From positions 36,937 through 74,341 of the forward strand of contig WELB01000249.1 in assembly GCA_009602725.1 (NCBI GenBank): DNA of 37,405 nt, written 5' to 3'. Position 1 is the first letter of the stretch, and each line of letters begins with the position of its first letter. Below, piece after piece: positions 1,915 to 37,405 of the stretch. The notes beneath the pieces were generated by a model. The model was not told where the DNA came from and ran no database searches. It worked only from the letters and a program-made list of their open reading frames with translations. A program made the position numbers and the translations under genes. This DNA is from Spirogloea muscicola (lineage: Eukaryota > Streptophyta > Zygnematophyceae > Spirogloeales > Spirogloeaceae).

Positions 1915-5207
<3,293 letters not shown>

Positions 5208-15361: not shown

Positions 15362-15614
15362 AGGTAGACTACAGCAGACTTCCCGGAGGTTGCGTAGTGC
15401 AGCGAGGAGCCGCCAAGTGGCGGCACCACAGGGCCTGGCCGCCGGCCTTGGCCGGTGAGCAGGTCAGGATGGGTCAAGGGTTGACTAGAGGCAGACCATG
15501 ACCGGCGCCGTCCATGGCCGACCAGACCTTTTTGGTGACCCGGTGCCCGACGCGCTTTGACGGCTAAGAATAACAAGCACTTCTCCCTTCTCCCTTCTCG
15601 TACTTTATTATTCT

Positions 15615-15745
15615 TTTTTGGGCTGGCTTTTCCAGCCCCTATCCTCAATGGGCGAGCCCTTTCTTGCTCTTTCTTTCTTCTTTGACGGCGGGCTCGGACA
15701 CTCACCCACATAAGGCGGGCACATGCCCCCCCCCCCGCCCACCCT
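15615..15745. repeat. Hairpin-unit copy plus a segment duplicated at 16345-16425
   Basis: A perfect stem GGGCTGG (15620-15626) / CCAGCCC (15632-15638) with loop CTTTT is followed by the standard CTATCCTCAATGGGCGAGCC. Next comes a stretch (CTTTGACGGCGGGCTCGG, then CACATAAGGCGGGCACATGC) that is repeated almost exactly at about 16370-16422. Confidence 0.85.
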
Positions 15746-15829
15746 TCTTCTTGGCATTTCACAGCCGACTCTTTCATATCAGCAGCCGCTTTCTCTTTCT
15801 TCTTGGGCTTCTTGTACTCTGCTCATTCT

Positions 15830-15942
15830 TTTTTGGGCTGGCTGTTCCAGCCCCTATCCTCAATGGGCGAGCTCTTTCTTGCTCTTTCTTTCCGCGGGCT
15901 CGTGGGCTCAGGTATATCGGATGCGCCTCTCTATATCCCTGC
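15830..15942. repeat. Hairpin-unit copy fused to a LINE tail
   Basis: Perfect stem GGGCTGG (15835-15841) / CCAGCCC (15847-15853), loop CTGTT, then CTATCCTCAATGGGCGAGC. From about 15909 the plus strand reads AQVYRMRLSISLQRSM, the start of the LINE tail that continues into the inverted repeat. Confidence 0.85.
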
Positions 15943-16712
15943 AGCGGTCCATGGCCCACGCTCTGCATCTGCGAGCTGGCCGTGCTCTCGCTGCGGGCTC
16001 TGGCTTTCGTCAGGGTGATAGCTTCCCGGAAGAAAGGGCTCGCCCATTGAGGATATGGGCTGGAACAGCCAGCCCAAGAAAAAGAATGAACACAGTTCAA
16101 GAAGGGGGCTAATCGAAGCACTTAGGTGAAGCACTACTTCCCGGCAGCTAGTCTGTCGGATCTGAGGCTCCTCACTCGTACTTACTGAGTGATCCATCCT
16201 CCCCCTGTTTTACCATAGCATCCTCAGGCCCCTTTGTAGCTGCTCACCGCTCTTAGGCCCCTCTGAACCTTTGTGATTTCTTTTTGGGCTGGCTTTTCGC
16301 AACCCTTGCCCCCATTGGGAGTGCCACTTCTTCTTTCTTTCTTCATGCGCCCCGCGCGCCTTCTCTCTTCTTTGACGGCGGGCTCGGACACTCACCCACA
16401 TAAGGCGGGCACATGCCCCCACCCAGCTCATAGAGAGAAGTGGCACTCCCAATGGGGGCAAGGGCTGCGAAAAGCCAGCCCAAAAAGAATTGACAAAGGT
16501 TCGAAGGGGCCGAAAAAGCGTGGAGCAGCTACAAAGGGGACTGAAGAGGCTAAGGTAGAGCAGGAAGAGGATGGATCACTCGGTAGTGACGAGTGAGGAG
16601 CCTCAGATCCGACAGACTAGCTGTCGGAAAAGTATCCCCCTGTTGAAAGCCGGAGGCCGCAGCGAGAGCACGGCCAGCACGCAGATGCAGAGCGTGGGCC
16701 ATGGACCGCTGA
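15943..16712. repeat. Large inverted repeat of two LINE tails, arms about 280 bases
   Basis: The left arm (15943-16331, less an insertion at 16030-16144) and the right arm (16433-16712, reverse complement) carry the same series in opposite orientations. The series is GCAGCGGTCCATGGCCCACG, the HALHLRAGRALAA codons, the SLSDLRLLTR tail, the GGCCCCTTTGTAGCTGCT box, hairpin GGGCTGGCTTTTCGCARCCC and CCCCCATTGGGAGTGCCACTTC. The spacer is about 100 bases. The left tail stops with TGA at 16186-16188. The right tail has CGA in that position and reads through. Confidence 0.9.
16030..16136 (-). mobile_element. 107-base hairpin mobile unit with 8-base target duplication
   Basis: CTTCCCGG occurs at 16022-16029 and again at 16137-16144. 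Between them lies a unit with the perfect stem GGGCTGG (16057-16063) / CCAGCCC (16069-16075), loop AACAG. It begins AAGAAAGGGCTCGCCCATTG and ends GAAGCACTTAGGTGAAGCAC-TA. It interrupts a LINE tail between the codons for FP and AAS. Removing the unit and one 8-mer rejoins the frame as DSFPAASLSDLRLLTR, which is how the uninterrupted copy at 18957-19010 reads. The unit is inserted opposite to the LINE tail. It has no ORF and no terminal inverted repeat that I can see. Confidence 0.85.
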
Positions 16713-17189
16713 AGAAAGAGCTCGCCCATTGAGGATAGAAAATTTTCGTGTATTTGAAATAATCGAAGGCCAGTATGGCCAAGTACAGAGGTAAGCACAT
16801 CTTATGACGTAGCAGCTAGCATCTAGCAGCTACTGGAGCTGCTAGTGGAGTGAGGCAGCAGCTGTGCCAGGAGGAATGGAGGGGTGTCGGCTGACGAAAG
16901 CACCGCCCTTGGGGCACGCCGGTCGTGAGGGGCCATCCCGTACGGGAGGGTGTCAGCTCACGCACGCCCGGGCCTGCTTGTCACACCCCGGGCGCGCCGA
17001 GCTGGGACCTCGCCCAATCAGGACCGCCGGCTGCCACCTGGCCGTGCAACTTGCAGATGCGAGGAGGGAGGAAGCGAGGGAGGGAAGAGAGAAGGTCACT
17101 TTTCCGTTTTACAGAAGACGAACTTTCCAGCAGAGGGCGATGGCTGCTAGAGCGGGAGAGGGAGATGGCGGGGTGCGAAGAAAATGCTC
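16713..17189. other. Partial hairpin flank, then GC-rich unassigned sequence
   Basis: CTCGCCCATTGAGGATA at about 16720-16737 is the flank of a hairpin unit that breaks off before the stem. At about 16760-16800 GGCCAGTATGGCCAAGTACAGAGG resembles 17378-17400. The rest (16860-17100) is GC-rich with no recognisable gene. Confidence 0.5.
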
Positions 17190-17525
17190 GTCCATAGAGA
17201 AGAGGGGCTGGCAAAGCCAGCTATGAAAAATTTGAACAATGCCCAAAGCTAAAAGAAAAGGTGCCGAAAAAGGACTACACTACAAAAAACGGGACGATGC
17301 GGAGGGGAACAAAGAAAGAAAGAGAGAGAGAGAACAAGAGAGGGAGAAGAATGCGTGTATATTAAGAGATGGGGAGGCCATGTGTGGCCAAGTACAAAGG
17401 CAAGCACATTGGACAAATGTACGTCACCTGCTGCTAAGCTGACCCGCTCAGTAACCACGAGTCAGCACATAGAGGTCGCTAGCTGACGCTCGAATACCGG
17501 ACGGCAATTGACTAGCTCTTGTGCC
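17190..17525 (-). repeat. Repeat block with hairpin and LINE tail, ends at assembly gap
   Basis: Hairpin GCTGGC/GCCAGC with an AAA loop (17207-17221). It is followed by a stretch through GGACTACACTACAAA that matches 37205-37310. From about 17373 a second segment (GGCCAAGTACAAAGGCAAGC, then AAATGTACGTCACCTGC) matches 28253-28412. On minus a LINE tail SDLYVLTRGY ends with TGA at 17448-17450. Confidence 0.75.
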
Positions 17526-17590
17526 NNNNNNNNNNNNNNNNNNNNNNNNNNNNNNNNNNNNNNNNNNNNNNNNNNNNNNNNNNNNNNNNN
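17526..17590. other. Assembly gap, 65 N
   Basis: Run of N. The repeat on its left (17373-17525) and the GC-rich sequence on its right are unrelated, so the join may be incorrect. Confidence 1.
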
Positions 17591-17639: not shown

Positions 17640-17955
17640 GTGGCAGGAGGGGGCGCCCAAGGGAGCCGCGGGGCCTGGCACAGCGGTGGCGGGGGCGGCG
17701 AGGAGGACTGAAGCCGCCGCCGTCGCCGTCGCCGGGCGCCACGACGGTCGGGGGCAGAAGAAAGGCTTGAGGAGGATGACTGGAGGAGCTCGGCAGCCGG
17801 CAAGGCGCCTGAGGGGGGCCCGGGAGCCTGGCGCAGCTTTGAGCGGAGCGCCCGAGGAAGCCCCGCGGCCTGGCGCGGCCATGAGCGCGGCGGAGCGAGC
17901 GCGCCAGCCGGCGGCAGCAGGGGGCAATGGAGCCGCCGCCGTCGCCGCCGGCCAA
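17640..17955. repeat. GC-rich diverged direct repeat
   Basis: Two related stretches, about 17660-17740 and 17848-17952. Both start GCGCCC-AGG-AGCC, contain GCCTGGC-C-GC and end in CCGCCGCCGTCGCCG. The open frame across it is low-complexity Ala/Gly/Arg and I do not call it a gene. Confidence 0.6.
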
Positions 17956-18066
17956 AAAAGAATGAGCAGAGTTCAAGAAGCCCAAGAAGAAGGGGGCCAG
18001 GCGAAGCACTAAGGCGAAGCACTAAGAAAGAAGCACACAAGTAGAAACAAAGCAGCTACTAACTAC
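17956..18066 (-). repeat. 3' flank of the LINE fragment with half a hairpin unit
   Basis: Downstream (minus) of the LINE stop is a duplicated GCTTAGTGCTTCGCC, then GGCCCCCTTCTT and CTCATTCTTTTTTGGC, the standard lead-in to the hairpin. The copy stops at the stem, replaced by GC-rich sequence. Confidence 0.6.
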
Positions 18067-18880
18067 TCAGTAACCCCTGCTAAGCAGTCGCAGGTCAGAG
18101 AGGCTATGTTCCTGGAAGGACGTCCCCTGGCCAGAGCCAAAGGCAGCAGCGAGGGCTCGGCCGGCACGCAGGTGCAGCGCACGGGCCATTGACCTCGGCA
18201 GCGAGACGGCCAGGCGCATGCGATACACCTGGGCGAGCGACCCGGCTGCAGGAAAGTCCACCGGCTCCCCATGGAAGCGGCGAGCGACGGCGTGACGGGC
18301 AAGCTGGTGGAGCAGTTCGAGCCACCGAGCACCCAACGCCCCGTGTGTATCGATAGCCAGCGGGAAGAACTCGTCGGCCGGCGGATGGTCAGCGTACTTC
18401 AGTTCTTATGCCCGAGCGGCGCAGGCGACCGCGTAGCCAGCCTTGGTGGCACACTGGGCTGGGTGGGAGCGGTCGAATGCGTCGGTAGTCACCACGTCCA
18501 GGAGGAGACGTGGCCCACCAGCTGGAGGGGTGGCCACCAGGTCGACACGACGGGCGTGGAGACCGTCGGCCCTGTTCCTGGAGCGGCATGACGCCGGAGT
18601 GCTCCGCAGCCACGGAGAAGCCCGCCTCCACCAGGATGCCATGCATGGCGTCCCGGAGGCGGTCATGGGCCGCTGTCCGCTCGCGGCCGTGCGAGCAGCG
18701 CAGAACGTGCGCAGCCAGCTCCCCCTGCTCGGCCCCGCGCTCACCGCACTCACATTGACGGACACCCTGGAGGCATGCGGCGGCAGGCCGAGGAGCCTGA
18801 AGGGATACAGACAGTCTCATCTGGTAGACCTGGGCCCAGGAGCCAGCGGCGTTGAAGTCAGCCGGCTCGCCGCGCCTACG
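18067..18880 (-). mobile_element. LINE 3' half: zinc knuckle, endonuclease-like region, tail; frameshifted
   Basis: Three minus frames join into one protein. First, RRGEPADFNAAGSWAQVYQM leads into a zinc-knuckle-like region QCECGERG...HVLRC and AHDRLRDAMHGILVEAGFSV. After a frameshift near 18575 comes VDLVATPPAGGPRLLLDVV, resembling a PD-(D/E)xK core. After another near 18405 comes KYADHPPADEFFPLAIDTHG and LGARWLELLHQLA, then the tail SLAQVYRMRLAVSLPRSMA and SLSDLRLLSRGY-stop (18067-18069). The order knuckle then restriction-like endonuclease after the polymerase is that of R2-type LINEs; this is recalled, not searched. The polymerase itself is missing, so this is a 5'-truncated dead copy. 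Confidence 0.65.
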
Positions 18881-18943: not shown

Positions 18944-19020
18944 TGGATCACTCATCAGTAGGTACGAGTGAGTAGCCTCAGATCCGACAGACTAGCTGCC
19001 GGGAAATTATCACCCAGCTC
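18944..19020 (-). repeat. LINE tail copy, uninterrupted (empty site)
   Basis: On minus it reads NFPAASLSDLRLLTRTY-stop (TGA at 18955-18957), followed by the GATCCATCCTCCCCCTG flank. It preserves the junction that is split by the hairpin unit at 16030-16136 and so serves as its empty-site control. Confidence 0.85.
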
Positions 19021-19355
19021 ATAGTCCTCGAAATCGTCGTCCACCATACGGACGACATCGGGTTGGTTACGTCGTCCTCTACACCCAGCTACACCCAGAG
19101 TGTACAGCTCCTGGGACTTCTTACCCGCTCGCATACCACTCTGTACGGTGAAGTTCATGCGAAGCTGAATGCTCGTACCAACCCAATGTCATTCGTATGC
19201 TGGACGACGATCTTGAGGACTGTGTACGGCGTTTTCATCTGTTATTGATGAAGTGCGGCAACATGAACGCCATGGACCAAGTCTATATCAAGGCGGGCCT
19301 CCAGACCATGTGGCTGTACTTACCCAACTTGACAAGCTCACGAATGAAGCAGTAA
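19021..19355. repeat. Inverted pair of an unknown coding fragment
   Basis: Minus 19070-19021 encodes RNQPDVVRMVDDDFEDYE; plus 19173-19222 encodes SYQPNVIRMLDDDLEDC. They are about 80-85% alike at DNA level by eye, with mostly conservative protein changes. The plus copy continues as RRFHLLLMKCGNMNAMDQVY to a TAA at 19353-19355. The minus copy runs straight into the LINE tail at 18957. The parent protein is not recognised. Confidence 0.55.
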
Positions 19356-30110: not shown

Positions 30111-33100
30111 TTATGGTCTTGTCTCTCTGTGGAGCACGTCCTCCTTGTCATCGCTGCCTCGCTTCACTTCAATACTCTCTAGCTCGTCTATGCTGCTTGA
30201 CTGCAATGCCAGTAACTCCAGCCGCTTGTCAAAGTGAGCCGCACTCACGTCCCGTTCCTCAAGCTCGGCACCCTCTATCTCCAGCCACTTCTCGCGCAGA
30301 TCGTCCAGAACATTGGCCTGTTCAGAGCCAACCTCGCCACCCGGAGCACTGGGAGCGCTGGTTCGTTTCTCCGAGTCTCCTGATGGTGGCGGCAACCTCC
30401 TAAGCAATCTCCGGAACTCTCTTGATACAGCGAATGACTCAAAATTGGCTGCCACCGTGTCCAGGCAGTACTCTCGAAGCTTCCACACCCCATAACTGCA
30501 ACAAACATATATCACCTGCTTGCTCAACACAAGTGAACACTATTGACCCCTTGATAGTTGTGATGAAATTTTATCTTGCCATTAGACAATATCATCTGCA
30601 ACAAGGATGACCAGCAGGCTTCTCTGACAAGACAATACAGATATGCTATGAAGACCATAGCAGCCTGCTGGTCATCATGCAGAGGCAGATCACATACAGA
30701 TCAGCAATCTCAAGCCAGCTGCAAATTTCTGAGATGCTGGCTGTCTCCAACTGAGGTATGAGAGCATCTGCTGTAGCCCGTTTCAGTGAGAACAGTAGAT
30801 ATCTTGAGGCTGCCTCAAAAACCTCTTCTGCCTGTTATGTGTGCAAAAGTTGCAACTTTAGCAGGCTGAAGATAAGCACTCCTGCTCCAAGAGCAGGAAT
30901 TCCAACAGAATTACAATAGGACGTCCAACAACCTCCGAGTGAAAAGTTGAATAAGATTGGCTCTACCAGTGCATGTTCTGATTGACTGCAATGCAGAACT
31001 GTAGGACCAATACAGTACCTGAGAGGGCTGAATCTCCTCTATTTTGTCAGTGTAACTGCCAGTGAGAGATTTGTTACAGGAAATCAGTCACACTGCTGCA
31101 GTCCAGGACGTGAGGATGCGGCTTCGCCCAGCAAGGGGCTCTGATACGATGAATGACAAGATGGCTTCAGAATGCAGTGGCATATGACACAAATAATGCT
31201 ACAATCACAGAGATCAGTTTTCTAGGAAGTGTTGCTCACATGTACTCAAGTAGTTTCTCAAGTGCGTTGATACTGAGGTCATGAACTGGTCGCACAGGGA
31301 GGTATCCAGCTACAGCAGCACTGCCCTCCAGGGTAGTACCTTGTGGTAAAGCCAACCCTTCCTGGAAGTCCTCCGTCCTAGCAAACAGTGCTCTGAAGTA
31401 CTCTGACCTGCTGGCCAGAATGAATCTATGACTTCTGAGCAACCTTTGGTCCACCAGAAAGCAAACATCTGCATGGTCATCAGCCAGCTGCAGATGTCCG
31501 TTGTCTGCTACCTCTCGTTGCAGTGTCTTTCCACTTTGCTGGCAGTCCTCAACATCAGCTGCAAATGCATTGCTATCCCCATTCATAAGGCTTGCTGTCT
31601 GATGTGCATCTGACATTCTTTGAGTATGTGTATGAATGTTGTGAGTTTCTAGCCTTCGATTTGCCGAGTGCATCGGGCCTGCCAGTGCTGAATACACAGC
31701 AGTCCTTGCCAACAGATTTCTGAGAGCAGCAGGTAATCTACTGTCTTCAGGAAGAGAAATTGCCTGCAACACACATGAAACAAGATCTCGCTCATTCAAT
31801 GAGCAATCTCATCTTCAAGTGGTGTTCAACACCAGCCAGAAGGCGCAACATTGTCAGGTAATCAATGGGTTCTGCTTGCCAAGATCTCTGGACCTACGCA
31901 TGAGCCAAATCCTCACCCCTTGGCAAGCAGGACCTCAGCACTTAGTTAGACCTGAAGCATCTGGACCTGAAGAGGCTTACACTACGCCCTGTTGGAATGC
32001 GAGAACCTGAAAAATGTGGCGTCGTTGAGAGCGATCGTCTAGGTGAAGAGATTTATGATTTGCATACTTCTGGTGCACTATTTCTTTCTCAAGAGCTTCT
32101 TGAAGGCTCTTACACCTGCAAACCTTACAAACACGTGCTAGATCTTCCAGGTCATCCACTGCAATTTCCAATCTGGGCCAAAAAGAGGAGGGCAACTCAC
32201 TGTCAAACTACTCATCTGTCTTTTTTACAATTCGAAAGTAGCAGCATTACAATTGATCGACTAAATTGCTGCCAGTCAGTACTAGAGTGATGCAAGTTGA
32301 CCTTCTGAGGAATTGTCTCTCATATAAGGTTTCCACAAAATGATGCTGAAGCTCGTGGAGATGATGGCCGCTTATCAGAAGCCTCCATCACAATTTCCAG
32401 ATGTACAGTGCATGGCAAAAAACTGGGCAGGGTATTGTGATCAGACAAGTCTTGCAAACCTGTCTGTGTAGAAAAATTGAATAAGAGCATGAAGAGCAGC
32501 GTACGTCAACTTAAGGTTTGCAAAGCGAATCTCCGACTTTCCTCTCCAGCTAGTCTGGAGCTTGTGAGCCAAAAAGGACGAACGAGCAGACAGAAGAGCT
32601 CGGTGTGCCCTGTCCACGACGAAAATGATTGAGATCATATGAGCTACGTTGTGGAAGTTCCAAATATTGACATACCCCATCTATGCTGCTAAACAAAACT
32701 CTTCACAGCTGTGAGGTGCTCTGCAAAGTTTGGTTTGGGTACACAAGTGGGTGTGCTCACCTGATTGGCTTTCCGGCAACACATAAGGTGATGTCGGCCC
32801 ACCAAGAGTTGCTATCGATGCAGCAGTCGCGGAGAGAGGCAGCCAGGGGATCAAGCGGGGGGGGCCTGGCTTCGTAGGCCTGCAAGACACCACATAGAAG
32901 ATGGTCAAAATTCTTTTCCTGGCCATCTGCAGTGTGATATAGCACTTTCGACCTGCCTAGAGATATCCCCTCTGATTGACAACTGCAAGACACATGGCTT
33001 TCTCCAGTACCTGTTGCTGATGCACGGAAAATTACATATTTACAACTTCACATCAGCTACAGAATGGGCATAGACTTGCACCCTTGCAGATACATTGAGG

Positions 33101-33585
33101 CTGTGCTGGCAGTACTTGATATGCATCACGTGATGTACACCCGATGCTCATAAGCTCTGCTGCCTCACCTTAAGAATGCGGCGAATGCGGAGGTTGAGCG
33201 CAGAGTAGTGGCAGCGGTCGCCGTCGAAGGTGTGCTCGCTGCAGATGGCGCCGGCGTCCAGGAGGATGCGGGCGGCGTCCAGGTGGCCGGCGAGGCAGGT
33301 GTAGTAGAGGGGCACCGAGTCCCACCGGTCGCGCACGTTGATGTCCACGCCCTCCTCCTCCACCAGCCGCCGCACGCGGTCCGCGTCGCCCGCCCGCGAC
33401 GCCTCGTAGATGTCGCCGTGCGGCACCCTGCGCCGCGGCCGCGGCGGCTCCGCGTCGTCGCCGTAGTCGAATTCGTCATCGTCGCCCAGAGCCGCCGCGT
33501 CGCCGGCGGCGACGGCGGCGGCGGCGGCAGGCGCCTCCTCGCCTTCCTCCTCCAGGCTCCACAGGAGGTCCCCGAACTGCCGCAT
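30111..33585 (-). CDS. ABTB1: Ankyrin repeat and double BTB/POZ protein (ABTB1 family, At2g04740 type)
   Basis: Probable substrate adaptor of a CUL3 ubiquitin ligase, by family knowledge of BTB proteins. Exons on minus: 33585-33169, 32879-32761, 32609-32460, 32172-32007, 31763-31240, 31055-31019, 30831-30698, 30495-30111. All phases agree, giving 643 residues. Order: acidic low-complexity N terminus; ankyrin region (about 70-139: [60 protein letters not shown]); first BTB (about 150-230: [20 protein letters not shown]); a linker with [20 protein letters not shown]; second BTB (from about 381: [20 protein letters not shown]); BACK-like helices ([18 protein letters not shown]); and a C terminus [20 protein letters not shown]. 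The sixth exon has only 37 bases. About 70 low-complexity residues precede the second BTB. I took the ATG at 33585 as start. Confidence 0.93.
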
Positions 33586-33702
33586 GGAGCCCGCGGCTCC
33601 GCCTCCGGCGGCGGCGGCGGCGGCGGTGCCTCCTGCAGCCCGATGGCCTGCGCGACCAGCTGAACGAGCCTACGGGTGGCGTCGTGCCTCACCGTCATCA
33701 CC
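33586..33702 (-). promoter_or_regulatory. Short unique leader of the ABTB1-family gene
   Basis: Only about 120 bases of GGC/GCC-rich sequence separate the chosen ATG from repeat DNA starting near 33703. Either the promoter lies inside the repeat block or the core promoter is very short. Confidence 0.35.
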
Positions 33703-34260
33703 TTAAGCCACCTTAGCATAGGGCTTCATTACATGCAGCCCCGTTTCCTGCACTGAGTTTTGCCTGAGCATTGCTTTGTGTTGGCTTGTATTGGCTTGGC
33801 TTGTCCTTTGCCACCCTTCTTTCAGTTCAAAGCGCACAGCGCGCCTTCTCTCACCGTCATTGTTGGAAAGCGTTTGACCTGAAGCCGCTGCCTCTTCGAT
33901 TGCACGATGTTGTGAGCTGGACATCAGACGCCGAAGTGGAGGATTCGGAGAAGTAAGCTCTTCCAAACTAACAACAACTAAGTGGTAAAGTGGCTCTCCC
34001 AAAAGGGTCAAAGGGCTGTGAACAGCCAGCCCGAAAGAATTCGACAAGGTCCGAAGGGGCCAACAAGCGCTTCTCAGAAGAAAGTGCTCGCCCATTGAGA
34101 ATAGGGGCTGGAACAACCAGCCCGAAAAAGAATGAACAGAGTACGAGAAGGGGGCCAGGGGAAGCGCTAAGTAACAGAAACAAAGCTGCTACGAGACACT
34201 CAGTAACCCCTGCTAAGCAGCCGCTCAGAGCTTTCCCGGTAGGATAGAGGAAGTGGTAGC
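33703..34260 (-). repeat. Repeat block with two hairpin units upstream of ABTB1
   Basis: 33713-33850 matches 7137-7265 (TAGCATAGGGCTTCATTACATG; GCGCACAGCGCGCC). On minus a LINE tail SERLLSRGY-stop (TGA 34200-34202) leads into TTAGCGCTTCCCCTGG, the ACTCTGTTCATTC lead-in and a perfect hairpin GGGCTGG (34105-34111) / CCAGCCC (34117-34123), loop AACAA. A second hairpin GGCTG/CAGCC lies at 34014-34027. Confidence 0.8.
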
Positions 34261-34943
34261 AGTGGCTGTCCTTGGCCAGCCAAGAATAAGCAAGGCCACA
34301 CCGTGAGCAGCAGCTTACTAGAACGTGTTCAAAATACTGGGGCAGGACTGCGCCAGCAGAGAAGGCCACTATGGCAGTAAAAGCACCCCCTACCTCCTCC
34401 TTTTTTTTTTTTTTTAACTGCAACAGCAGCAGCCTGGGACTAGCCAAAGGTGGGATGGCAGACACGTCTGTTGGCGAAGCTAGCGGCTTCTCAAACTCAG
34501 CAAATTCATGCATGATGGAAGCATAGAGGTCTGCAGCCTGTGGTCACTGCAGTACCTTAGCGAGCAGACCCATCGATAGCCTTGAGAGCTGCAAAGACAG
34601 CATCAATTTAATGAGCAAGATATACAAGGGTGTGTTAGCTGAAACATCCAAACCAACCTTGGTCAGTATGATGACACTTGCATTTCTGTGCCACATACGC
34701 TTTCCAGGTTCGTCAACTTGCAATACAAGTGAGACCAAGCTTTGCCAATGAGATCCATTCCTTGCAGAAGATACAGCACCAGTTAGAGGATTTGGAGCTT
34801 GGCTTCTGTGAAGACGGCAGGAACAAGGAACAAGGAAAATGGAGGACAACATGAAGTACACTGATTATGGCGGGGCATACAAGTGCAGCAACTCTTGCAA
34901 TGGCACAGACATTGTCAAGCAGCAGCAAGGGTACAAGTCTTAT
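34261..34943. other. No gene seen; 3' side of the acetyltransferase gene
   Basis: Contains a T-rich run at about 34402-34416 and short frames on minus (for example 34544-34861) without recognisable motifs. The part next to 34943 should be 3' UTR. Confidence 0.4.
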
Positions 34944-36862
34944 TCATTTGACCAAAAAACTTAGCAGCAGTCGTCGTGGACGTTGTAATCTCTTCTCCAC
35001 GCTAATTGATTCCTCCTGTTCTACAACATAACCTAGACCCTTGTATAGAGCAATTGCACGGGCATTGATAGCTTCTACATGAACATATAGCACGCTAATG
35101 TCCATAGCGCGTGCCACTAGCAAGGCCTCCTCCATGAGTGTTGTGGCTACGCCTCTCCTCCTGGCTGCTTTGAGTATACACAGGTTGAATACGTAGGCTA
35201 TCCTTGTTGCAGCTCTGCTTGTGGTGGGATGAGCACCTTCCAGGTATTCACCTGGGAGAGACTTGCCAACCTGTAGACACAGGACAACCAGAGGTGCAAA
35301 TGTCCTATAAGAAAGCTGTACACGATGTCCAGCACAACTTCCTCTTCCTATTTCGTACTGTGTGAATATTAAGATTGCACCACAGACACTTGGGCGTGGG
35401 GTTTGCCCATATCTCTGCCACACCAACCTTGGTTGGGCTCCTAGTTTGGAGTGCCAACATGTACAATTGGAACAAGACCTCGTTCGAGTCCACACTGGGA
35501 TGCGTGCCAGAACTGTCCTACAGCAACGAAAATCCTCAATGCTTACAAAGGTTCACACGTGGCAGTTGAAACTCAATCTGCTGTAGGACTGCCGTATGTG
35601 TGTTGCTTGCGAGTTGGCCTGATGATGAGTATTGAAGGTTGACTACCTTTCACGAGCACGCCCCTGCCATGTGTAGAGGAAGATATCGCTACTTGAAACC
35701 CTACTGCTTGCAGCTAGTGACAAAAGCGCAAGTCAGCCCCTGGCCGGCATGAGGACTGGACATCAGAAGCATTCAAAGCATTACCTGTACATCGAGCGTG
35801 CCAATGGCGACCAGCTCGCCCTTTGGTTGTAGCAAGTCAGGCTGCCGCCGCGTGATCTCGGGTGGAATGGAAAATATACTTCGCTCCACCCTGTGCCTTT
35901 GACCATCTTGCCCCAGTAGAGCCTCGTGCTCAGCGCGCTCGCACACAGCGAGCAGGCATTTCACATTCATCCCAAGTGACTCCATCTTACTGTCCTGGAC
36001 AAAACGTGACAAGCCGAGTGAGCGTACTCATCTCTGAGAGCATGTCTTAGCAGTCTGCAGTCATGCAATACCCAACACAATGCAGAGTACAATGCAGATC
36101 ACTGACATCGTAATACAGCAGCATAAAGTACATCTCCTGAGTTTTAAGTCAATGTCATACCCTCTCATATTCTGATTGTATCCGTTTTTTTAAGAGGACT
36201 TGCAGTCGATATTCATGTGCAGCCTTTTGCCGTGCAGACTCAACGTCGTTGAGATTGCTAGAGGTAACATTTGCTGGGTATTCATAGAAGAGTTGTGCTC
36301 GTAAAGTAGCAGCTGCAAGATGCTCATCAGGAGTCTTCGCCGGAATGACCCAGAATCTGAGCCTGGTTCTGGAGCCTGTGCAGAAGCCATCTTTCACTTG
36401 CACAAGAATGCACTGGCTGCTGTAGTATGAATACCTCTTCTGGATGTGAGCCCAGCACCAGAAGGACTGGCCAGAAGCTGGCCTATATCTGCGCACACAC
36501 TGATATCACTTCAGTTGTAGCATCTATCAAATACTGTTGCTTCAGACTCTCACTGAGATAGTCAAGCAATGCAAGATCGTCTATTAAATGCAGTGGCAAC
36601 CTGATACTCTAAGACTTTTGGTACTGAGCAGGAGTTTAGCAACAGCTCAAATGCTGCTGCATCAGACCAAATATTCTGATGCACTTGACTTGTAGAGCAG
36701 ATCTAGATGTTGTTATCGGGAAGGTGCAAGGGTGCCATAGCTCATGAGTACTCGGTACCTTCTGAGAAGTCGGCCAGCAGATGGCTGCAGGCTCAGCTGT
36801 GGAGGCGAACATGCTGAAGGAAACCCGGGCAGCAGCTCCTGAGCGGCTGCAATGTGCTTCAT
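34944..36862 (-). CDS. GNAT-family N-acetyltransferase, probably plastid
   Basis: Transfers an acetyl group from acetyl-CoA to an amine, probably protein N-termini or lysines in the plastid, by analogy with plant plastid GNATs. Exons on minus: 36862-36759, 36488-36161, 35994-35785, 35270-34944. Phases agree, giving 322 residues. The first exon (MKHIAAAQELLPGFPSACSP, then LSLQPSAGRLLRRYRP) is rich in Ser/Leu/Arg and poor in acid, like a transit peptide; position 36496, the next candidate, is GTG. Then come WVIPAKTPDEHLAAATLRAQ, ELVAIGTLDVQ, the acceptor-adjacent loop LPGEYLEGAHPTTSRAATR, the strand YVFNLCILKAARRRGVATTL with the acetyl-CoA pyrophosphate-binding pattern RRxGxA (about 250-255), and INARAIALYKGLGYV, the closing helix of the fold. 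The substrate is unknown. Confidence 0.88.
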
Positions 36863-37405
36863 TTGGGCGCGCTGCACTCTTTGTCGCCCAAATTTTGAAG
36901 GACTGAGGGTCTGAGCTTTGAGGGTCAGCCTTTGAGAATTAAATGGAAAGGTTCAGGGTATTGGTAGCTCCGCTCAGTCTGGGGTTGGGCCTGCGCCATT
37001 GCTACCAAATGTCCGACCTTCCTATGGAGCGCACAGCTCCAGCGCCGAGGTCACAGGCACGTCGACCTCGCGGCGGTCAAGGAGGGGCCCGGTCCGTTGG
37101 CGACCACTGCAGACAGTGTGGACCCCTGTGGTGCGGCGTCGAGCTCCTGGAGCCGTGCACACTGAGCTGGCCTCGCCGGTGAGAAAGCCCGTCGCACAAG
37201 TGAGCAGAAGGTGCTCGCCCATTGAGAAGAGGGGCTGGCAAAGCCAACCCAAAAAGAATGGACAATGTTCAAAGCCAAAGAAAGAGGTGCTGAAAAAGGA
37301 CTACACTACAAAGTGCAAGATGGTGCAGAGGGAGATGCAGATGGCTGCTCAGTATCCACGTGTGAGCAACAGCAGATCAGAGTAACTCGGAGCAGGAGAA
37401 GCGGC
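36863..37405 (-). repeat. Repeat copy at the right edge
   Basis: 37205-37310 matches 17190-17295 (ATTGAGAAGAGGGGCTGGCA; GAAAAAGGACTACACTACAAA). The hairpin GGGCTGGC/GCCAACCC has one mismatch (37232-37250). On minus a LINE tail SDLLLLTRGY ends with TGA at 37349-37351. The stretch 36863-37200 contains the acetyltransferase promoter and GC-rich sequence without a gene. Confidence 0.75.

Follow-up and report, generated by a model that had tools for sequence, protein, structure and literature searches.

The 107-base insert at positions 16030-16136 of the window, which is the whole 37,405-nucleotide stretch of Spirogloea muscicola DNA analysed here, is almost certainly a 'dead on arrival' copy, truncated at its 5' end, of a non-LTR retrotransposon. 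The initial annotation had described it as a mobile insertion with a flanking duplication and an empty site, which holds, and as a 107-base unit of its own, either SINE-like or a MITE, which is not supported, since one end alone is shared among copies. An ordinary LINE tail is the preferred reading because the copies agree in their 3' end, are ragged at the 5' end and have duplications of variable length, because empty sites are present, and because the parent element bears a reverse transcriptase (RT). The features of the insertion site and its host repeat are the following.

16030..16136, minus strand: insert of 107 bases, read as a 5'-truncated LINE copy comprising solely the last 107 bases of the 3' UTR
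16022..16029, no strand: target-site duplication CTTCCCGG, one copy
16137..16144, no strand: target-site duplication CTTCCCGG, other copy
16057..16075, minus strand: 7-bp stem-loop GGGCTGG-N5-CCAGCCC near the LINE 3' end
15939..16334, plus strand: host, formed by the C-terminal coding end plus the 3' end of a related LINE family; both outer limits are approximate
18951..19030, minus strand: uninterrupted (empty-site) host paralogue, reading ...DNFPAASLSDLRLLTRTY and then the stop
16561..16720, minus strand: second uninterrupted host paralogue, reading ...DTFPTASLSDLRLLTRHY

The LINE sense of the insert is the minus strand, with the LINE 3' end at 16030. The 8-base duplication round the insert had been called correctly, CTTCCCGG standing at both insert edges. 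The insert was also rightly said to split a LINE tail, and excision of the insert together with one 8-mer, 115 bases and no multiple of three, yields LQRSMAHALHLRAGRALAAGSGFRQGDSFPAASLSDLRLLTRTY followed by the stop, the same reading as in a host repeat that has no insert. The residues across the restored junction read ...GSGFRQGDSFPAASLSDLRLLTRTY and then the stop, and a natural uninterrupted copy at L048:298-723 matches them. The host stop codon TGA lies at 16186-16188. The empty site reported inside the window is confirmed in the minus-strand paralogue at 18951-19030, and the second one, at 16561-16720, was absent from the earlier account. Genome-wide, 1,670 uninterrupted junctions (839+831) match the junction pattern with at most 3 mismatches, and the reversed-pattern control gives 0. 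The two patterns of the host lie about 140 bases apart elsewhere, for example at C1:1315597 and C1:1315766. The duplication and the uninterrupted junctions together indicate that the insert is newer than the host repeat and that one host copy has been broken. Between 15939 and 16714, the window holds two host LINE ends as a large inverted pair with arms 84-92% complementary, in which 16138-16261 pairs with 16507-16630, 15939-16028 with 16625-16714, and 16253-16331 with 16436-16514.

This dense arrangement of inverted and nested repeat pieces is what might favour gene conversion or recombination between repeats, placing the copy with no retrotransposition, but conversion would not be expected to leave a flawless 8-base duplication exactly at the insert ends together with an otherwise intact empty-site sequence, and this explanation is extremely improbable.

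The parent of the insert can be followed in the genome, of which 153 Mb in 471 contigs, window included, was searched; a missing match does not amount to absence, as assembly stretches may be gapped. The 107-base query gave at least 42 matches, a lower bound because 40 of 1,139 candidates were scored. Among the matches listed, 42/42 start at query position 1-5, the LINE 3' end, in a ranking that favours complete matches, and 3/42, the window copy included, show identity over the full 1-107. Homology continues beyond the far end of the unit into a common longer sequence in 8/10 of the loci listed first; it ends near position 107 in the other two, the window copy (L001) and L008. At the shared end the minus-strand order is the hairpin, TATCCTCAATGGGCGAGC and CCTTTCTT, and the copies diverge past CCTTTCTT. 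About 45 bases beyond the other end of the unit lies the stop codon of a long frame. In L051, this stop codon is followed by a UTR of about 150 bases, which ends in the counterpart of the unit (97% identical) and belongs to the unit's own subfamily. Because the L051 frame is interrupted by a long N run, the complete RT frame was taken from its sister copy L052, whose 1,357-codon open frame contains a reverse transcriptase match (RVT_1, E 8.5e-16, Pfam). A C2H2 finger in L052 scores E 0.093, below the Pfam cut-off, and inspection by eye adds a second finger-like motif.

The closest solved proteins to the parent are R2 retrotransposons (E 7.9e-7), the best stretch lying over the RT. No AP-type endonuclease is found in the L052 frame (Pfam, E<=0.1). 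Inspection of the parent C-terminus by eye finds a zinc-knuckle-like motif and an RxD...D-like motif, the latter resembling that of restriction-like endonucleases. The C-terminal part has no Pfam match, a profile search of solved structures with this domain returns no R2 match, and its predicted fold has a mean pLDDT of 38.5. From these motifs, the C-terminus looks like a zinc knuckle with a putative restriction-like endonuclease. A literature search with all terms combined found no paper on restriction-like-endonuclease LINEs in algae. The C-terminal 467 residues of the parent as query gave at least 91 matches from 21,050 candidates, and many of those listed lack a stop codon and are about 90% identical or higher, suggesting that the parent LINE family may be young. 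LINE coding sequence lies upstream in 10/40 sampled copies, with doubt over two of the ten (L012 and L042). Near the L007 copy, at L007 2816-3073 on the plus strand, stands the C-terminus of a second and distinct LINE (QCECGFRAEGGDRATHMLRC...), with 38% identity to the parent over 87 residues.

The 3'-terminal 26-mer CCAGCCCNTATCCTCAATGGGCGAGC has 2,696 exact copies in the genome, with 0 for the reversed-pattern control, and the sequence that marks the subfamily of the unit itself (CCAGCCCATATCC...) occurs 129 times. The first sample comprised forty copies taken as listed (33 from C1, 7 from C2), except that two close neighbours near C2:231 kb were passed over; a further 60 copies of the unit's subfamily were added. 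The sampled copies keep the 26-mer by selection, so that the quantity measured is the 5' end. The 3' end is sharp and common, and the 5' ends are scattered over a range of roughly 34 to 800 bases. The initial annotation had proposed aligning at least 50 copies with their flanks to look for sharp common ends and duplications of constant length; in 107 placed copies, one end is sharp and the other ragged, and the duplications are of variable length. Five fetched loci (L005, L006, L007, L051 and L052) are outside the placed set. Because L001 and L008 seemed to stop together, a length class at 107 was looked for, and no sharp class exists among the 102 placed copies whose alignments reach the 3' end, measured against a single-subfamily reference: lengths run from 34 bases up, and 5/102 fall within 101-113. 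This reference understates some lengths, and several references were used for the 40- and 60-copy sets.

With several references, the median length is about 124 bases in 38/40 sampled copies, L024 and L031 being unmeasurable and excluded (121.5 if both are taken as zero). Copies of 155 bases or less, that is, of UTR alone, make up 25/38 of those measured, and two of the 38, one of them (L042) doubtful, are about 800 bases or longer. The lengths of L012 and L042 come from a coding match that is possibly a neighbour's; their nucleotide match alone gives 37 and 73, which would bring the copies of 155 bases or less to 27/38. In the subfamily set, 34/60 copies are of 155 bases or less and 10/60 reach the edge of the fetched sequence. 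Even fragments of 34-36 bases, which lack the 5' arm of the hairpin, retain the same 3' end. Five exact 26-mer copies, all in the same orientation, are packed into about 2.1 kb at C2:569960-572062, as a cluster or as tandem LINE tails.

Duplications were counted in 89/107 copies, 18 being dropped for an alignment short of the 3' end, a boundary near the edge, or N. A word of 7 or more bases is common to both junctions in 24/89 copies and one of 8 or more bases in 16/89, against 3.0 and 0.69 expected when flanks are swapped between copies. Copy by copy, the evidence for duplication is clear for a minority alone, as 65/89 copies have no duplication of 7 or more bases, which may come from age, short duplications or misplaced 5' boundaries. 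Some of the counted copies are themselves duplicates, as identical flanks in L069/L085 and L079/L089 indicate. Among the 24 clear cases, the duplication is 7-12 bases long; its first base is C in 15, and the next four places are T in 13, 13, 15 and 12. The apparent resemblance of the targets to the CTTTCTT tail is only a hint, because the CTTT-rich tail and the duplication are hard to separate. L004 and L008 occupy the same position in two host-type LINE ends (GGCCC before CTTTGTAGCTGC) and differ in their own 5' ends, an arrangement consistent with a preferred site.

These same copies bear on a transposase-moved MITE or other small DNA element, for which the short, non-coding sequence, internal hairpin and flanking duplication would speak; this reading was rejected as hardly credible, since a terminal inverted repeat is absent by eye, one end alone is common to the copies while the 5' ends are ragged, and the duplication length is not constant but varies from 7 to 12 in the 24 clear cases.

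A true SINE, with its own short transcript and a fixed 5' end, borrowing the tail and machinery of a LINE, is the strongest of the alternatives and still very unlikely. The window copy (107), L082 (108) and L008 (about 108) do end close together, and LINE-tailed SINEs are known in the green alga Chlamydomonas (PMC3747384). Against these points, the 5' ends are widely spread, and past position 107 the longer copies carry further LINE UTR of the same kind. If a SINE had been built on the LINE tail, several copies should have a common non-LINE head, and none was recognised in 91 flanks. Seven pairs among these 91 flanks have sequence in common next to the junction. By inspection, four of the seven come from loci that are duplicates or nearly so (L069/L085; L079/L089, each also with L068), and three are insertions into like repeats (L004/L008, L038/L111 and L042/L056, the boundary of the last being doubtful). 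The SINE reading was therefore rejected on the sampled copies, with no discrete common 5' end and no non-LINE head.

The 5'-truncated LINE copy retains the hairpin of its parent. The hairpin noticed in the initial annotation is real, GGGCTGG-AACAG-CCAGCCC at 16057-16075, and it is the 3'-terminal stem-loop of the LINE. Its GGGCTGG-CCAGCCC stem recurs in related LINE 3' ends of the same genome. Another family, whose tail CGCAGCCCTTGCCCCCATTGGGAGTGCCACTT has 738 exact copies (control 0), carries a shorter GGGCTG...CAGCCC stem. At the level of sequence, the hairpin is conserved. The tails were aligned as 54 profile hits spanning model positions 16-64, drawn from 107 profile hits without the exact pattern, plus the window copy, giving 55 sequences, 53 of them distinct. 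Standard pairs occupy 82.7% of the cells in these 55 tails, the inner helix being paired in 88.1% and the two outer helices in 83.0% and 73.0%. Shuffles match the observed value in 16/500 cases for cells paired, 22/500 for cell changes on both sides and 36/500 for the covariation score, and in 203/500 for pairs changed on both sides and 221/500 for pair types, with the caveat that related sequences may exceed shuffles without structure. In an alignment-free comparison of the 45/55 sequences that are splittable, the mean longest helix is 7.2, versus 5.0 with shuffled 3' letters, in a set made of few subfamilies whose events are not independent. Six single-strand tail folds give z of -1.77, -3.20, -4.94, +0.20, -2.46 and -0.82, and the window unit folded as 115 bases gives z -1.11.

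Other ends of the same kind are frequent in the window, and the main ones are listed here.

17951..18775, minus strand: decayed LINE end of the parent family, with C-terminal coding, stop codon and a UTR matching the unit
about 15592..15665, plus strand: 3' end of the same LINE family
about 15808..15880, plus strand: 3' end of the same LINE family
34079..34152, minus strand: 3' end of the same LINE family, within a related piece at 34078-34171
about 37206..37272, minus strand: 3' end of a related LINE subfamily, unlisted earlier
17179..17245, minus strand: 3' end of a related LINE subfamily, overlapping a related piece at 17178-17230 that was unlisted earlier
16713..16737, minus strand: terminal fragment of such a 3' end, 25 bases long

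The related pieces that had been attributed to the 107-base element are real, but each is the end of a LINE copy, from one family or several, and no copy of such an element. With a sequence profile, 14 of these 3' ends or parts of them are detected across the window (E<=0.05), the weakest having E of 0.04-0.01. The part that had been placed at 17990 likewise exists (17955-18024) and proves to be UTR of the decayed parent LINE end, in which the coding end, the stop codon and the UTR stand together within the window at 18.2-17.95 kb on the minus strand. Coding in this copy closes with SMARALHLRAGRALAAAFGSGQGTSFQEHSLSDLRLLSRGY and the stop, and the UTR corresponding to the unit comes next; the copy has a stop codon inside (17951-18775), and its own hairpin and 3' end are absent. 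The minus-strand sequence breaks off just inside the hairpin at 17951-17992 (TTTTTTGGC, with GC-rich sequence beyond), and because this break is abrupt, the 3' terminus seems to have been removed by a later event. An N run lies nearby, at 17526-17590.

Several genes were noticed beside the copies. A tRNA-Phe (GAA) gene at L002 1131-1204, plus strand, lies about 250 bases from the 5' junction, outside the LINE copy, and it is absent from the other first-ten copies compared. The same locus, on contig C107, has a bacterial-type transglycosylase domain at 2207-3106, plus strand (PF00912, E 6.6e-12), incomplete where the locus stops, which is perhaps, as a guess, a penicillin-binding protein of a plastid-bearing host. 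In the window, minus-strand frames at 31239-35552 encode a BTB domain (31239-31808), ankyrin repeats (33151-33669) and a GNAT acetyltransferase (34947-35552).

A plausible course of events for the insert is target-primed reverse transcription. The LINE protein would nick the host repeat, and the freed 3' end would serve as primer for copying the LINE RNA from its 3' tail. Reverse transcription would then halt early, with 107 bases copied, and the other strand would be joined at a second nick 8 bases off, where fill-in would create the 8-base duplication; the order of these strand events is inferred. The family has several features by which LINEs are known: RT in the parent, a common 3' end with variable 5' truncation, and duplications of variable length. 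The shortness of the copies is the sole mildly unusual point, and it bears on the distance that the enzyme copies before stopping. Tentatively, and less likely than not, this could be a dispersed LINE with an R2-like RT that is unusually prone to stop within 35-155 bases and has left thousands of structured tails of about 100 bases, with a weak preference for sites whose duplication starts with CTTT, like the CTTTCTT tail, that would arise from priming microhomology. If such early stopping is true, it would impose a SINE-like load without any SINE. For annotation, the "element" of 107 bases is replaced by a LINE family with an annotatable 3' end, a parent frame and a truncation pattern, and repeat finders that treat tails of about 100 bases as separate families would overcount the elements in the genome.

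Comparisons with several described retrotransposons show both likenesses and differences. In ZfL2, a zebrafish stringent-type LINE, the protein binds a 3' stem-loop (PMC4176376). As in ZfL2, the unit's LINE has a stem-loop near its 3' end, a putative recognition signal for the LINE protein; its sequence differs from that of ZfL2, and by analogy the LINE protein may bind it. SINEX-2_CR of Chlamydomonas ends in (CTTT)n with a RandI tail (PMC3747384), and the tail here ends similarly in CTTTCTT; unlike with SINEX, a SINE was not recognised among the sampled copies. Dualen has both endonuclease types (PMC4640811), and, unlike RandI and Dualen, the L052 frame is without an AP-type endonuclease match (Pfam, E<=0.1). 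The R2 retrotransposons provide the nearest solved proteins by sequence, and finger-like motifs before the RT (by eye, with one weak Pfam match) are a further likeness; R2 targets one site in 28S rRNA genes (PMC4640811), unlike the scattered copies found here. CRE, R2, R4 and NeSL are mostly site-specific clades, and HERO is a restriction-like-endonuclease clade with many non-specific families (PMC4640811). The family resembles HERO in its copies scattered over contigs and perhaps, by eye, in the C-terminal motifs of the parent. If the endonuclease reading is right, scattered insertion would fit HERO better than CRE, R2, R4 or NeSL. With 5'-truncated LINEs generally, the copies have in common the same 3' end, variable 5' truncation and a short target-site duplication, and with 25/38 at 155 bases or less they lie at or below the short end of the usual range.
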